From positions 1 through 22,852 of the IMG/VR virus record IMGVR_UViG_3300027687_000080: 22,852 nt of DNA. The stretch is one strand, 5' to 3'. Position numbers and translations under genes: made by a program. The stretch is from a virus. Positions 11,240 to 16,388 of this stretch are shown piece after piece. Position 1 is the stretch's first letter. Every line of letters begins with the position of its first letter. The notes beneath the pieces were generated by a model, which saw only the letters and a list, made by a program, of their open reading frames with translations, had not been told where the DNA came from and did no database searches.

Positions 11240-12117
11240 TGTCTTTAGAAGAGTATAGAAAGTCCAAATCATTGGACAAATTACTTGGTGCCATGGCGGA
11301 AGCTGATGAACCACAAGTTCAAAAAAAATCATATGTAGACGAAAGAATGTGGAAACCAGAGTTGGATAAAACTGGTAATGGTTATGCAGTTATTCGTTTC
11401 TTGCCTGCGGCACAAATTGAGAAATCATGGGTGAAGTTATATTCACATGCTTTCCAAGGGCCAACTGGACAGTGGTTTATTGAGAACTCTCTTACTACTT
11501 TGCCTGGTGGTAAAGACCCAGTGTCAGAACACAATACTGCATTGTGGAATAGTGGTGTAGAGTCCGATAAGGAAATTGCCCGTAAACAAAAGAGGAAATT
11601 ATCTTATTACTCAAACATCTATGTGGTAAGTGACCCTAAACATCCAGAGAACGAAGGTAAAGTTTTCTTGTTCAGATATGGTAAGAAGATTTGGGATAAG
11701 ATTTCCGAAGCTGCAACACCAGCATTTGAAGATGAGAAACCTTTAAATGCTTTTGATTTGGATGAAGGTGCAGACTTTAAATTAAAGATTCGTAAGGTAG
11801 ACGGTTACTGGAACTATGATAAGTCAGAGTTTGCTGAACCAACTAAACTTGCAGAAGATGATAAGTTGGAAGAAATCTTTTCTAGTCAACATGACTTACA
11901 GAGTTTTCTTGCTCCTACTAACTTCAAGTCTTATGACGAACTTAAAACTCGTCTAGATATTGTATTGTCTGGAACGGTAGTTGCTAAAACAGCAGAAGCC
12001 ATTATGGATGACCCAATTGCACCGATTGTTGATACTACAGAAGTATCAGCACCAGTACAAGTCAGTGAAGAAGATGACGATACTATGTCATACTTTGAGA
12101 AGTTGGCAAGTAACTAA
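11239..12117 (+). CDS. 32: gp32-like single-stranded DNA-binding protein
   Basis: A 292-aa protein matching T4 gp32. The N-terminal basic segment (YRKSKSLDKLLGAM) corresponds to the LAST-type cooperativity region. KQKRKLSYYSNIYVVSDPKHPENEGKVFLFRYGKKIWDKI (about 116-155) is the conserved core, and the end is acidic (SEEDDD) as in the T4 protein-interaction tail. It coats ssDNA during replication, recombination and repair. Unlike T4 gp32 it has no cysteine at all, so the Zn(His-Cys3) site is absent; only His70 remains near that place. GGAG lies 7 nt before the ATG. It ends head to head with the tape measure, stops overlapping. Confidence 0.9.
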   Translation: MSLEEYRKSKSLDKLLGAMAEADEPQVQKKSYVDERMWKPELDKTGNGYAVIRFLPAAQIEKSWVKLYSHAFQGPTGQWFIENSLTTLPGGKDPVSEHNTALWNSGVESDKEIARKQKRKLSYYSNIYVVSDPKHPENEGKVFLFRYGKKIWDKISEAATPAFEDEKPLNAFDLDEGADFKLKIRKVDGYWNYDKSEFAEPTKLAEDDKLEEIFSSQHDLQSFLAPTNFKSYDELKTRLDIVLSGTVVAKTAEAIMDDPIAPIVDTTEVSAPVQVSEEDDDTMSYFEKLASN

Positions 12118-14015
12118 AATACACCATCAAAGCCAGGGGCATTGTTGTTATGCATTAACGACTGCCCTTGGTAGGTTGTGGATTTATTCGCATTATCAAT
12201 AGTTTTTCTCTCATCCCTAATTACTGTGGTGTTTGTTGTACCACCTCTTGGATTAGACATTTGTTCTGAACCAGTAATCATCTTTTTCTTTTCTGCCTCT
12301 GCAACTGGATCAATTGATCCTGCCTCAACAGAATTTGCATTATTAACTAAATCTAAGCCTGTTGCTGGATCTAATCCAGCAAACTTATAAACTGCATCTG
12401 GTATAGGGTTAAGGTTCACTTCACCACCACCAAACTTTTTACCAAATAAAGTCATAGATGGTAAATCAAAAGATAAGAAATCTGGGGGTGGTAGAATAGA
12501 CTTTAGAAGATTAGCTATCATATTACCAGCATCACCAGCTATTTTACCCATACTAGGAACTTTAAAGTCAAATAAACCTTTTACAAAATCTATAGCATCA
12601 TCAACAACACTCATAATATACTTACCCAGACTAAATGGTGTTGTTTTACCTTGTTCATCTTTACCAAAACCAAATATATCTCTAAAGAAGTTTATTGCAA
12701 GATTATAAGGTAGTAGGATTATATCTAAAAACTTAGTGGCAAAAGTATCGCCTGGTTTGAATGTAAACAGATCCTTAAAAAAACCTATGATATTTGCAAA
12801 CTTATCACTAACAAAACTAGTAATTCCATTCCAACCAGCAGTTACCTTATCTTTTGCAAAATTAAACGCTGATGAAAAAACACCAGTGACACTCTTAAAT
12901 ACATTTTTTGCGCCGTCTTTTACACCATTCCAAGTTTTGGATATGAACCCAGTGATATTACCGTATATGTCACTAAAAAATTTACTGATAGATCCACCTA
13001 TAGAATCAGTTCCCTCAAATCCAAATATCTTACCAATTACATTAAATATACCAGTGACAGCATTATCTAAGGTATCTATTAGGAATGTTCCAATTGAACC
13101 AAATAGTTTTGTGATACCACCAAGAATATCACCCTCTTGAAATAGTTTAAATGCATCACCAATTCCACTGAATACCTTTTTAATATTAGCCCACTGTTTA
13201 AGGAATACATCTTCAATAATTGGGTATATCTCTTTTACAAAGAAATCTACTATTTTCATAATTACTGGAAAAATATCTTCTTTGAATACCTTAACAAGTG
13301 CCATAACTGCTGGTATTACTTTGTTTATTAAAAAGGTTTTTAGTTGGTCGAAGTATTTACTATTAACAAATGCAAAGATTGCTGGAAGTAAGAGTGCTAA
13401 AGCACCTTTCTTAATCATACCAATTAATCCACCAGCACCACTCTTTGCCACATCTACAACACCACCACCTAAACCTTTTAATCCATTTTTGATACCTTCT
13501 AAACTCGCTAATGATTTAAATGTTGCAGCCATATTTGCTGCTCTAGATTTCGCTTCTTCTTTCATTCTACCAGCGATACCCATTTTATTCTTTTTTTCTA
13601 ATCTTGCTTCTTGTCGTGCAATACCAGCTGCATCTCTTTGTAGTGCAATATTCTCTTCTGCATTACCACCAGCTTTTGTTATCGCATCTTTCATTTCTTG
13701 TAGTGCAACTTTTTGTGCTTCAATATCTGATTTTTCTGCTTGTCTGCCTGCAAGTTCTTCTGCTGATATACCTAAGAGTTTTGCCTGATTGTCTAAGACT
13801 TTGATATCCCTATCTGCAGCTGCTCTTGCTTCTTTAGATACACCTTTTGCAGCGGTGCCAGAAACCTTTGAGAGTTTCCTCAATTCTGCAACTTGATCAG
13901 CACTGTAAACTTTGTCATCTAATGCTTTCTTCTTATCTGATTCAATTGATTCAGCAAGTTTTGCATTGTTTGCTTTTAGGGCATTAATTATATCTCTGTC
14001 GAATTTATCAGCCAT
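12114..14015 (-). CDS. tail tape measure protein
   Basis: A 633-aa protein, of similar size to T4 gp29. The N-terminal about 150 residues are charged and helical (coiled coil, rich in Ala, Lys and Glu). The middle (about 190-330) has long hydrophobic, transmembrane-like helices such as ALALLLPAIFAFVN and the repeated DIFPVIMKIVDFFVKEIYPII, typical of tape measures that enter the host membrane. Repeated Phe-rich helices follow (SDIYGNITGFISKTWNG). The C-terminus is Asn/Gly-rich and polar. It should set tail length and be released on ejection. It begins in the stop of a small membrane protein gene, with AGAAGG before the ATG. Confidence 0.78.
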   Translation of the reverse strand: MADKFDRDIINALKANNAKLAESIESDKKKALDDKVYSADQVAELRKLSKVSGTAAKGVSKEARAAADRDIKVLDNQAKLLGISAEELAGRQAEKSDIEAQKVALQEMKDAITKAGGNAEENIALQRDAAGIARQEARLEKKNKMGIAGRMKEEAKSRAANMAATFKSLASLEGIKNGLKGLGGGVVDVAKSGAGGLIGMIKKGALALLLPAIFAFVNSKYFDQLKTFLINKVIPAVMALVKVFKEDIFPVIMKIVDFFVKEIYPIIEDVFLKQWANIKKVFSGIGDAFKLFQEGDILGGITKLFGSIGTFLIDTLDNAVTGIFNVIGKIFGFEGTDSIGGSISKFFSDIYGNITGFISKTWNGVKDGAKNVFKSVTGVFSSAFNFAKDKVTAGWNGITSFVSDKFANIIGFFKDLFTFKPGDTFATKFLDIILLPYNLAINFFRDIFGFGKDEQGKTTPFSLGKYIMSVVDDAIDFVKGLFDFKVPSMGKIAGDAGNMIANLLKSILPPPDFLSFDLPSMTLFGKKFGGGEVNLNPIPDAVYKFAGLDPATGLDLVNNANSVEAGSIDPVAEAEKKKMITGSEQMSNPRGGTTNTTVIRDERKTIDNANKSTTYQGQSLMHNNNAPGFDGVF

Positions 14016-14227
14016 TACTTAATTACCTTCTTTAACCATAGATACAATGCATAACAACCAAATAAGTATGCTGTTGCTACACCTACATCTAATATGTGTT
14101 CTCTCATGTGATATATAAATTCAATACCTGCTTGAACATCACCCTTACCAGCAGGATCAACAATAATTTGTTCTACTTTACCATCTTCACTAAACTCTAT
14201 AGCAGTTCGTTCTGTCTCTTGAGTCAT
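14015..14227 (-). CDS. small single-pass membrane protein
   Basis: A 70-aa protein. The first 45 residues are acidic and soluble. The last 25 form one hydrophobic segment (DVGVATAYLFGCYALYLWL) with a basic end (KKVIK), which predicts an N-out/C-in or tail-anchored topology. It overlaps the tape measure start by one base and follows an EF-hand membrane protein. A lysis role (holin/antiholin) or a tail-membrane role is possible, but nothing specific is recognisable. Confidence 0.6.
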   Translation of the reverse strand: MTQETERTAIEFSEDGKVEQIIVDPAGKGDVQAGIEFIYHMREHILDVGVATAYLFGCYALYLWLKKVIK

Positions 14228-14236
14228 TTACTTTTC

Positions 14237-14566
14237 CTATTTCTTTTTATCAGCGTATGCATTTGCACCAAAATAAGCAGCAACTAATGCTGAGATTGCA
14301 ACAAAATATGTAGGTGCAATATTAGCAATCAACTTTGCAGCTACTTCTTGTCCTAACAGTGATGTAATCAAAATGCCTGATGGATAGAATAACATACCCA
14401 TTAGAGCAAACCATGTCATATATCTCATTGCATCACGCCTCGCATCTACATCCTCTAATTCTTTTCTTTTAAATTCCAGATACATCTGATGTTCATCTGG
14501 ACTAACATTGCCATCACCGTTACTATCTGCTGGATGGAATCCAGCCTTTTTAATTTCTTCTGCCAT
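14237..14566 (-). CDS. two-helix membrane protein with an EF-hand loop (holin candidate)
   Basis: A 109-aa protein. Residues 14-25 (DSNGDGNVSPDE) are a canonical 12-residue EF-hand calcium loop with Asp at 1, Asn at 3, Asp at 5, Gly at 6 and Glu at 12. A charged helix follows, then two transmembrane segments (about 49-70 and 86-103) and a basic tail. The helices and size suit a holin-like protein, and similar EF-hand membrane proteins occur in marine T4-like phages. The calcium link is inference. AGAGGAAGA is the Shine-Dalgarno. Confidence 0.65.
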   Translation of the reverse strand: MAEEIKKAGFHPADSNGDGNVSPDEHQMYLEFKRKELEDVDARRDAMRYMTWFALMGMLFYPSGILITSLLGQEVAAKLIANIAPTYFVAISALVAAYFGANAYADKKK

Positions 14567-14743: not shown

Positions 14744-14938
14744 CTATTTATTCTTATTGTTTTCTCTCTCTACTCTTTCATTTTCTTTTTTAATGTATTC
14801 TGCAAGTAATCCAGTATATATATCCCTTTCCCAAGGTATCATATCTTCTAATTCACTCAAACTATATTGATGATGTTGCATCAACGAGAAGTTCATCTTG
14901 TAATAGTTTTCTAGTGTTTCATGAGAAAGGATTACCCT
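14744..14938 (-). CDS. -1 frameshift extension of the gp26/gp51-type protein
   Basis: The slippery heptamer T TTT TTA (14944-14938) is in frame at the end of the 14932-15636 gene, one sense codon (GGG) before its stop. A -1 shift opens 64 codons from AGG at 14938 to TAG at 14746-14744, with no stop between. The product has a compact, protein-like sequence (MNFSLMQHHQYSLSELEDM, then PWERDIYTGLL) and a charged helical end. An internal ATG (14896) would give 50 aa but has no clear ribosome site. The fusion would be about 297 aa. This is the G/GT arrangement of tail-assembly chaperones; see findings. Confidence 0.72.
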   Translation of the reverse strand, partial: RVILSHETLENYYKMNFSLMQHHQYSLSELEDMIPWERDIYTGLLAEYIKKENERVERENNKNK

Positions 14939-15636
14939 AAAAAACTTTGCAGCCCCTCCAATAGCACAGTAGATTCTACTTTAGTCTTTGGATTGACTAC
15001 CGTAATTTCATGTCTAAGTCTAGGCATAGTTTCAAAGAAACCAACTACTGCTTGAAATTGTTGTGTATTCATCTGATCAACAAATTCTTGTACCTCTTTA
15101 TCTGATACATCAACTCTTTTGTAAATCTTATCATCAAAATGCATTTCATTAATACAATGATTAATCATCTCAAACATCATTGTTGCATCCCCACCAGTGG
15201 AATATTTTGCATAATCCTTTAGTGTAGGGTATCTCATAATAAGGTTAATTTTATCTGTTATAGAAACAACATTTGTGTGTTCATCAAACATTTGAGTTTC
15301 AATTTCATCTAGTTTAATATCAATTGAAACTTTTGTCTTTCCATCATCTGGGCAAAGTACAGATACTTTAGCAGTTTCCCCAACTGATTTTGCACGAATT
15401 TTCATAAACAAGTATTCAATATCAAATACTGGTTGTCTCTGTGCATCAATACCACCATCGGTACAAGATGCAACTAATTCAGTAATTGTATTTGCTATAT
15501 TGCCTACATCGTCACTCTCTTGTGCCATCATAAGAACTTTTTGTTCTTTGACTAAGAATGGACGGTATTTTGTTATTACGCCTGAACTAGGAATTGTTAT
15601 TTCATAGGTAGGGGTATCTAGTCTTGGTAGTGCCAT
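14932..15636 (-). CDS. gp26/gp51-type baseplate hub / tail assembly protein
   Basis: A 234-aa protein whose start, ALPRLDTPTYEITIPSSG, then YRPFLVKEQKVLMMAQES, matches the T4 gp26/gp51 baseplate family. T4 genetics places these as hub assembly factors. The position here, between a tube-like gene and the tape measure, plus the slippery site at its end, suggests a tail-assembly chaperone acting on the tape measure. AAAGGATG precedes the ATG. The unshifted product ends in QSFLG. A shifted fraction would read on for 64 residues. Confidence 0.75.
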   Translation of the reverse strand: MALPRLDTPTYEITIPSSGVITKYRPFLVKEQKVLMMAQESDDVGNIANTITELVASCTDGGIDAQRQPVFDIEYLFMKIRAKSVGETAKVSVLCPDDGKTKVSIDIKLDEIETQMFDEHTNVVSITDKINLIMRYPTLKDYAKYSTGGDATMMFEMINHCINEMHFDDKIYKRVDVSDKEVQEFVDQMNTQQFQAVVGFFETMPRLRHEITVVNPKTKVESTVLLEGLQSFLG

Positions 15637-15656: not shown

Positions 15657-16388
15657 TTATCTTTTCGTAAATGCTACGTTTTTCAAATTCGTCCTTCTCA
15701 CTGTATCAACACCAATTGATTCAAGCATTTCTTCTATTGGTGCAGGCAATGAACTTTCAGAATTTAAAGACTTCCAATATCTATAGGAGAATGTTACACC
15801 TACAGTGTGAAAGGAGTCATTGGTTGCATAGTCCAAAGCTTGTTCTGCAATTTGTTTTGGAAATGCATCAACTAATTCAATGCCATATGTTCTGGCGTTC
15901 AAATTGTTTAATTGGTATATAGTGACACTACCAACGTAGTCATCGTAGTATCCCATAGACCAAGTCTGTGGATTATATGCGAGTCTTTGCCAACTCTCAA
16001 ATAATTGTTTTTCTTTCATATCTGGGCCACACTGAAAAGTGCCTGTTACTTCTGGATAACTATATCCTTGAACAATTTCTCTTGTCGGGCCATATATGTT
16101 TGTGTCTGCTTCGGTATCAAGAGTTCTGCCTGGAAAAGATATTTGTGAACATCTCAATCCAGTTGCTCTTGCTGTTCCATCACTATTAACTTTACCCATA
16201 AGTAGGGAAAATACGTTATCTAGTGCATTGCCGCCTGTCTGTGAACCTCTAGTTCCAGTTGGACATGATAGAATTACTTCAAACTTGTTAGGTTGTGCAA
16301 CACCATCGTTACGAAACCCAGCGGCTGCGCTTTCAATGTCATCTGATACAACACCTAATTGTCTTAGTATATCTTTTGCAATACTCAT
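15657..16388 (-). CDS. tail tube-like protein (gp19/gp54 type)
   Basis: A 243-aa protein with the elements of the T4 tube family: NKFEVILSCP strand, LRCSQISFPGRTL, YGPTREIVQGYSYPEVTGTFQC and the block LFESWQRLAYNPQTWSMGYYDDYVGSVTIYQL, then GIELVDAFPKQI and the end strand VGVTFSYRYW. The 60 extra N- and C-terminal residues suggest the gp54-type tube initiator rather than the main tube gp19. It forms or starts the ring stack through which DNA passes. It begins in the stop of the upstream gene, and the chaperone-like gene follows after 20 nt. Confidence 0.68.
   Translation of the reverse strand: MSIAKDILRQLGVVSDDIESAAAGFRNDGVAQPNKFEVILSCPTGTRGSQTGGNALDNVFSLLMGKVNSDGTARATGLRCSQISFPGRTLDTEADTNIYGPTREIVQGYSYPEVTGTFQCGPDMKEKQLFESWQRLAYNPQTWSMGYYDDYVGSVTIYQLNNLNARTYGIELVDAFPKQIAEQALDYATNDSFHTVGVTFSYRYWKSLNSESSLPAPIEEMLESIGVDTVRRTNLKNVAFTKR

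Follow-up and report, generated by a model that had tools for sequence, protein, structure and literature searches.

The IMG/VR virus record IMGVR_UViG_3300027687_000080 (22,852 bases, 35% GC), analyzed over its whole length and referred to here as the window, comes from a marine T4-like phage and contains on its minus strand a gene of the gp26 family whose 3' end carries a candidate site for -1 ribosomal frameshifting. The gene (14932-15636) encodes 234 amino acids, the putative short form of a tail assembly chaperone (TAC-N), and its product matches PF12322 in Pfam at 2.5e-60 (204.3 bits versus a cut-off of 24.5, positions 2-218 of the 219 of the profile) and PHROG 150 at 4.2e-64. A search of NCBIfam retrieved no family above the cut-off. 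The gene ends with CTG CAA AGT TTT TTA GGG TAA, in which the slippery heptamer T TTT TTA (14938-14944) stands in the zero-frame register and is followed by one sense codon, GGG (14937-14935), and the TAA stop (14934-14932). On the same strand the -1 frame is open for 64 codons plus a stop (14744-14938). A -1 slip on the heptamer would therefore add 64 residues (RVILSHETLENYYKMNFSLMQHHQYSLSELEDM...NNKNK), closed by the stop codon 14746-14744, and the predicted long form (TAC-NC), read in the zero frame through TTA and then through the extension, would comprise 233 + 64 = 297 residues. An earlier note on this DNA had pointed to the heptamer one GGG codon ahead of the stop, which is seen in the sequence, and to an open, protein-like -1 frame of 64 codons, which was confirmed by the reading frame, by a match to PHROG 634 and by the ratio of nonsynonymous to synonymous substitutions (dN/dS).

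The extension, a gp51-type domain, matches PHROG 634, 'baseplate hub assembly catalyst', at 1.4e-26. It also matches the end of the PHROG 150 profile (positions 231-280, 2.3e-7), a family that probably includes long-form members because gp51 of phage T4 matches it nearly end to end. The open reading frame (ORF) listed at 14744-14896 is the extension from its first ATG onward; the 14 extension residues upstream of that ATG are largely conserved in relatives. Heptamers of the type X XXY YYZ occur in register 33 times in the 6531 codons of 32 likely genes, picked from 76 ORFs, and only one of the 33, the site at 14938-14944, joins a -1 frame that extends beyond the stop of its own gene. In mononucleotide shuffles of the region, the 65 codons stayed open in 19 of 20000 cases; much stronger evidence against chance comes from the comparison of relatives.

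Relatives gathered from viral contigs and phage records provided 142 loci besides the window copy (L002-L143), ten of which (L002-L011) belong to the window's own cluster. The conservation of the heptamer among homologues, a check proposed in the earlier note, was found in 111 of the 142 loci (93 IMG/VR contigs and 18 phage records), all of which have T TTT TTN in register, at a distance from the stop of 3 nucleotides (nt) in 88, 0 nt in 22 and 24 nt in one. The remaining 31 loci are 24 of the Ackermannviridae type described below, those of T4, 44RR2.8t and GAP161, and four that run off the end of their contig. Clustering of the 111 loci at 80% identity gave 55 clusters, one of which (L116) is a truncated near-duplicate of another (L115). 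In the 55 cluster representatives the last base of the heptamer is C in 26, T in 14, A in 13 and G in 2, all three stop codons are represented after the site, and the extension is 56-69 codons long. The phage records with the site include Kyanoviridae (e.g. S-SM1, S-PM2 and HTVC008M), Sinorhizobium phiM9, Pseudomonas pf16, Aeromonas Aeh1, Vibrio K575, Cronobacter LPCS28, Stenotrophomonas DLP_6 and Ps15, and Nitratidesulfovibrio SRB7757; among the Straboviridae sampled, Aeh1, LPCS28, VmeM-32 and Aswh_1 have it. No relatives turned up when the viral contigs were scanned with the protein of Vibrio K575. Homology of the extension is weak at L084 and L092, which had no PHROG match at 0.01 and matched the extension profile with E-values of 0.06 and 0.02, and the extension of L089 gave no match to that profile; the E-values of extension-profile and locus comparisons refer to small sequence sets. 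In Pelagibacter phage Mosig (L083, 4699-4732), TTTTTTC lies 24 nt ahead of the stop instead of 0-3 nt.

The comparison of extension sequences, the second check proposed, shows that the extension is under purifying selection. The median dN/dS was 0.17 and the maximum 0.58 in 204 pairs, with a range of 0.02-0.30 in 22 disjoint pairs. These pairs were drawn from 80 unique extensions, after exclusion of pairs with less than 60% identity, with dN zero or with dS outside 0.1-2; L051, whose extension is cut by the contig end, was left out. Stops number 343 and 336 in the other two frames of the extension stretch, which are broken in all 55 clusters, and the conserved part of the extension starts directly behind the slip site. 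Codon choice at the heptamer was evaluated with the encoded residues and the codon usage of each gene held fixed. The clusters were drawn only from loci with the heptamer, and what is measured is the improbability of the slippery codons for the residues encoded rather than the frequency of the heptamer among gp26 genes. The mean probability of the slippery codons was 0.33 per cluster over the 55 clusters. In phages that avoid these codons elsewhere (phiM9, DLP_6, MC09, pf16 and SRB7757) they were nevertheless retained, at probabilities of 0.002-0.05, the lowest being 0.002 in phiM9 and 0.004 in DLP_6.

Upstream of the heptamer, inside the gene, the window has GGAGGGG (14953-14959, minus strand), an element that resembles a Shine-Dalgarno (SD) sequence and is a probable stimulator of frameshifting. 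Its GGAGG ends 10 nt before the heptamer; in dnaX of E. coli the spacing of the SD-like element is also about 10 nt. GGAGG is found at this spot in 12 of the 55 clusters and some 4-nt SD core in 47. Pairing with the anti-SD exceeded that of synonymous shuffles in four intervals at the spot (combined Z -8.5, -9.0, -6.3 and -3.7 over the 55 clusters), and six control intervals lying farther upstream showed no excess (-0.5 to +2.5). GAG accounts for 21 of 32 cases at the Glu-Gly motif, compared with 328 of 1145 elsewhere in the genes. RNA folding downstream of the site exceeded that of synonymous shuffles, with a combined Z of -12.7 over 5-95 nt; in 42-nt intervals the value was -7.1 at the site and, far downstream, lay between -2.0 and +1.3. 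Some clades (L012, L014, L023 and L025) have a clear hairpin about 6 nt past the heptamer. This arrangement resembles that of dnaX, whose signal consists of a slippery site, an upstream SD-like stimulator and a downstream hairpin (PMC3711429, in the passage available). A slippery heptamer and an upstream SD-like element are common to both, the hairpin is present in only some of the relatives studied here and is missing or weak in the window, and dnaX is an unrelated gene with a different heptamer; the likeness is one of signals, not of membership.

The relation to T4 was examined by alignment of profiles. The profile of the zero-frame protein plus the extension was aligned with profiles made from T4, 44RR2.8t and GAP161: gp51 matched it, almost over its full length, at columns 11-287 (probability 99.6), and gp26 at columns 18-236 (99.3). 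The extension profile alone aligned with gp51 at a probability of 97.2, its columns 4-53 corresponding to gp51 203-251, the last 49 residues, and gave nothing credible against gp26 (0.2). The gp26 and gp51 profiles of the three phages also match each other (98.5). It follows that T4 encodes the short form, gp26, and the long form, gp51, in separate genes. Both heptamer and extension are missing from gp26 of T4, 44RR2.8t and GAP161, whose gp51 is a long, in-frame paralogue; past gp26 of T4, the -1 frame is occupied by gene 25. The T4 proteins are thus homologous counterparts of the two forms predicted here, but they are produced from two genes on opposite strands with no frameshift site. The earlier note had held that gp26 and gp51 are the T4-branch equivalents of the tape-measure chaperone and that frameshifting is conserved in that branch. 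The first of these proposals is supported by the profile alignments. As to the second, the slippery site is present at the 111 loci, some Straboviridae among them, and absent in T4, 44RR2.8t and GAP161, so that frameshifting would not extend to the whole branch. In the part of PMC3004832 available, gp26 and gp51 of T4 are both listed as hub assembly chaperones; independent data now support assigning these textbook hub 'chaperones' to the tail assembly chaperone kind. T4 gp26 (L081, 4803-5429, minus strand) also matches PHROG 1140, the gp28 family, weakly (E 9e-4). The reverse match, from the gp28 family to gp26, was not seen. By sequence, gp28 may be a further relative of gp26.

Structures were predicted as well. 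The AlphaFold model of gp26 was confident, with a predicted local distance difference test score of 89.3, and that of the extension, which is helical, had 82.2. When candidates from Foldseek were re-aligned to the N-domain of gp26, the joint best were 3FGX and 2OB9, the latter being the HK97 tail assembly chaperone, both at Z 7.7 and over 85 and 83 residues, respectively; the next entry reached Z 4.6. The predicted resemblance to the HK97 chaperone fold is supportive only. A comparison of the gp26 profile with the sequences of solved structures yielded E-values of 0.2 or worse, and a search of the PDB with the extension model returned nothing useful.

The position of the gene also agrees with a chaperone function. 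Just upstream on the minus strand lies a gene of the tail tube family (15657-16388; PHROG 45, tail tube, 1.9e-33; its match to Pfam gp19, 0.036, is below the cut-off), and downstream on the same strand a tape-measure-like gene (12114-14015), the expected client of the chaperone, which matches several PHROG tape-measure profiles, the best at 2.8e-12. The chaperone gene is thus located between tube-family and tape-measure-like genes, as expected of the G/GT type of phage lambda and as the earlier note had stated, with two small ORFs (14237-14566 and 14015-14227) intervening between the extension and the tape-measure-like gene. The first of these encodes 109 amino acids with a weak match to PHROG 27150 (0.004), a match shared by the gene at the same position in HTVC008M (2.4e-4). 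Lambda gpG and gpGT, described in PMC5009743, have the same arrangement of a short and a -1 frameshifted long form encoded between the tube and tape measure genes. The window differs from it in its two small ORFs ahead of the tape-measure-like gene and in its heptamer, T TTT TTA; the slippery site of lambda is GGGAAAG.

Based on these observations, we conclude, with a probability of about 0.92, that this is a gene for two forms of a tail assembly chaperone, a gp26-type TAC-N and a TAC-NC with a gp51-type extension, the latter produced by -1 frameshifting on T TTT TTA. The tests of homologues, selection, start codons and codon choice all favor the proposal of the earlier note that a slippery site makes a G/GT-style chaperone out of a gp26-type gene. 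According to this model, most ribosomes would terminate at TAA and release the short protein of 234 residues, and a minority would slip one base back on the heptamer, aided by the internal GGAGG, which lies 10 nt ahead of it, and by a hairpin downstream in some of the relatives, and would append the helical domain of 64 residues. If lambda G/GT is taken as the model, the tape measure protein may be coated by many copies of the short form and few of the long one. The extension would recruit tail tube or hub-initiator proteins, and both forms of the chaperone would then leave the finished tail, as in lambda; it is from this analogy that we assign each form its role in assembly. For a published cluster of HK97-like chaperones, a passage in PMC3711429 gives 6-7% frameshifting in reporter tests.

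The core of this concept is already published. Vladimirov, Gautam and Davidson (2022, Virology 566:9-15) reportedly found conserved frameshifting in several groups of T4-like phages and, for T4 itself, identified the two forms as the products of genes 26 and 51. In the passages available, Vladimirov et al. 2022 is cited for some T4-like phages with one short gene and one long fused gene (PMC10885494) and for poly-T slippery sites in the TAC-N genes of T4-like phages (PMC12846349), and G/GT frameshifting is elsewhere described as widely conserved 'except T4' (PMC5009743, likewise from a passage). The present gene is another case of a known kind of chaperone. For the specialist it amounts to a correction and extension rather than a surprise, because the core idea has been in print since 2022. 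What the present analysis adds are the stimulatory signals, the scale of conservation and the departing lineages (Ackermannviridae, CP220, PaBG and perhaps SP-15). In the portions of the open-licence literature that were available, no mention was found of the SD-like element in T4-like chaperone genes or of the marine clade, which does not show that they are unpublished. The joined gene is marked in none of the 23 annotated phage records examined that have a -1 extension (L082-L092, L129-L133, L135-L138 and L141-L143); they show the extension as a small gene of its own or leave it unannotated. The analysis indicates that what cyanophage and pelagiphage records list as a small gene, 'gp51 / baseplate hub assembly catalyst', is the frameshifted end of gp26. 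For T4-like Klebsiella phages, a supplement contains peptides from mass spectrometry 'that suggest frameshifts', with the genes unnamed in the passage available (PMC13119998).

Several points weigh against the proposed frameshift or reduce the force of the evidence for it. The slip by the ribosome itself and its efficiency are what we infer from the sequences. The log10 product of the codon probabilities over the clusters is -34.7 if they are independent; the clusters are related, so this significance is overstated. Taken singly, the SD-like signal reached p <0.1 in only 19 of the 55 clusters in the best intervals, and the upstream controls for folding, between -2.2 and +0.1, show a slightly negative drift. 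Structure downstream of the site is weak in the window itself (z -0.46 and +0.69 versus dinucleotide shuffles) and in the representative of its cluster (-1.9 to +0.3 versus synonymous shuffles). RNAalifold found no consensus structure over 22 relatives, and a single RNA structure common to close relatives was rejected on that ground. The match to the chaperone fold is modest, as a Z below 8 can reflect a common arrangement, and with Foldseek alone it was not significant (E 2.7 and 3.5, probability 0.35 and 0.23). Finally, an ATG at or just behind the stop in some relatives makes separate translation of the extension possible there.

The last point belongs to a broader alternative, namely that the extension is a small protein in its own right, annotated as gp51, whose translation starts at an initiation codon within it or by termination and reinitiation at the gp26 stop. 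Public records do annotate it as a gene of its own, and TAATG or TGATG is found in the -1 frame at the gp26 stop at L084, L087 and several loci of the Ackermannviridae type, among others. However, the first 10 codons of the extension contain no ATG in 40 of the 55 clusters and no ATG, GTG or TTG in 32, and an early ATG with a 4-nt SD match was found in 4 clusters, compared with 47 of 55 for the start of gp26 itself, gp26 starts having been chosen automatically. In the window the first ATG is codon 15 of the extension, after 14 residues, and lacks an SD match; in SRB7757 (L134) there is no ATG, GTG or TTG, hence no usable start, anywhere in the extension. An independent protein would also leave the conservation of the heptamer against codon usage unexplained, and in T4 gp51 the two parts form a continuous fusion. 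Separate initiation as the main route was rejected on the start-codon and SD evidence, and the alternative as a whole is improbable.

Slippage of RNA polymerase on the T run, in place of the ribosome, would yield the same long form, and the conserved element, being a homopolymer run, is compatible with it as far as the sequence goes. Polymerase slippage generally requires longer runs, and the run consists of only six Ts in the 41 of 55 clusters whose heptamer does not end in T; moreover, the upstream SD-like signal and the downstream folding would be expected to act on ribosomes. Polymerase slippage is even less probable than separate initiation. The least credible explanation, with next to no chance of being right, is that the heptamer is fortuitous and the ORF downstream of it unrelated or in decay, or that a sequencing error shifted the frame. 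At 35% GC, heptamers in register are hardly rare in the record, as the 33 counted above attest, but site and extension recur in 55 clusters under strong purifying selection and this is the only one of the 33 of its kind. The comparative data refute a chance heptamer.

Some lineages depart from the T TTT TTN site. The Ackermannviridae type (the ACKERMANNVIRIDAE type) comprises 24 loci (L086, L089, L092-L110 and L135-L137), 18 contigs and Vibrio D503 having been assigned to it by similarity. In all 24 a -1 frame of similar length is open beyond the stop, and where close pairs exist the extension is conserved (dN/dS <=0.17 in the pairs listed); some of these extensions show weak sequence homology to the others. 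At 23 loci the site consists of ATT, CTT or GTT and then TTY, and the remaining locus has GCT TTC; one codon and the stop come next. An ATG overlaps the stop (TAATG) in 7 loci. Slippage of a single tRNA and reinitiation are both possible for this type. At the tail chaperone locus of phage Adele (Vandenendeviridae/Andersonviridae), a T-rich GTTTTT motif with a proposed -1 frameshift has been described (PMC12846349, in the passage available). The proposed -1 frameshift, the T-rich motif and the open -1 frame are shared with the loci studied here, whereas GTTTTT is unlike T TTT TTN and resembles the sites of the Ackermannviridae type in its motif.

In Campylobacter phage CP220 (L148, L150), profile matches indicate two gp26-family genes, one apparently with an in-frame C-terminal extension, a T4-like solution, and PaBG (L153, L155) probably likewise has two, one of them apparently extended in frame. 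Bacillus phage SP-15 (L147) contains an extension-like sequence (..MAIFERKEMYSRLLL..) in the +1/-2 frame after AATTTTTTC, the end of its gp26-type gene; the extension profile gave no match at E 1 in the frames scanned. The extension of SP-15 thus seems to lie in the +1 or -2 frame, judging from a resemblance of motifs in one sequence. We consider it an even bet that the T4-like phages share an ancestral dnaX-like cassette, composed of the SD-like element, a T6N heptamer and often a hairpin about 6 nt downstream, which lineages replaced in different ways: by two genes in T4 and its relatives, CP220 and PaBG, by a non-canonical NTT TTY site or a stop-start overlap in the Ackermannviridae, and perhaps by a +1/-2 shift in SP-15. 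If this is true, one locus offers a natural experiment in how a virus retains two forms of one protein. In the alignment, many of the distant gp26 proteins have a CPKCG-like, zinc-ribbon-like motif near the C-terminus, and most of the marine ones aligned have an NPKTK-like sequence.
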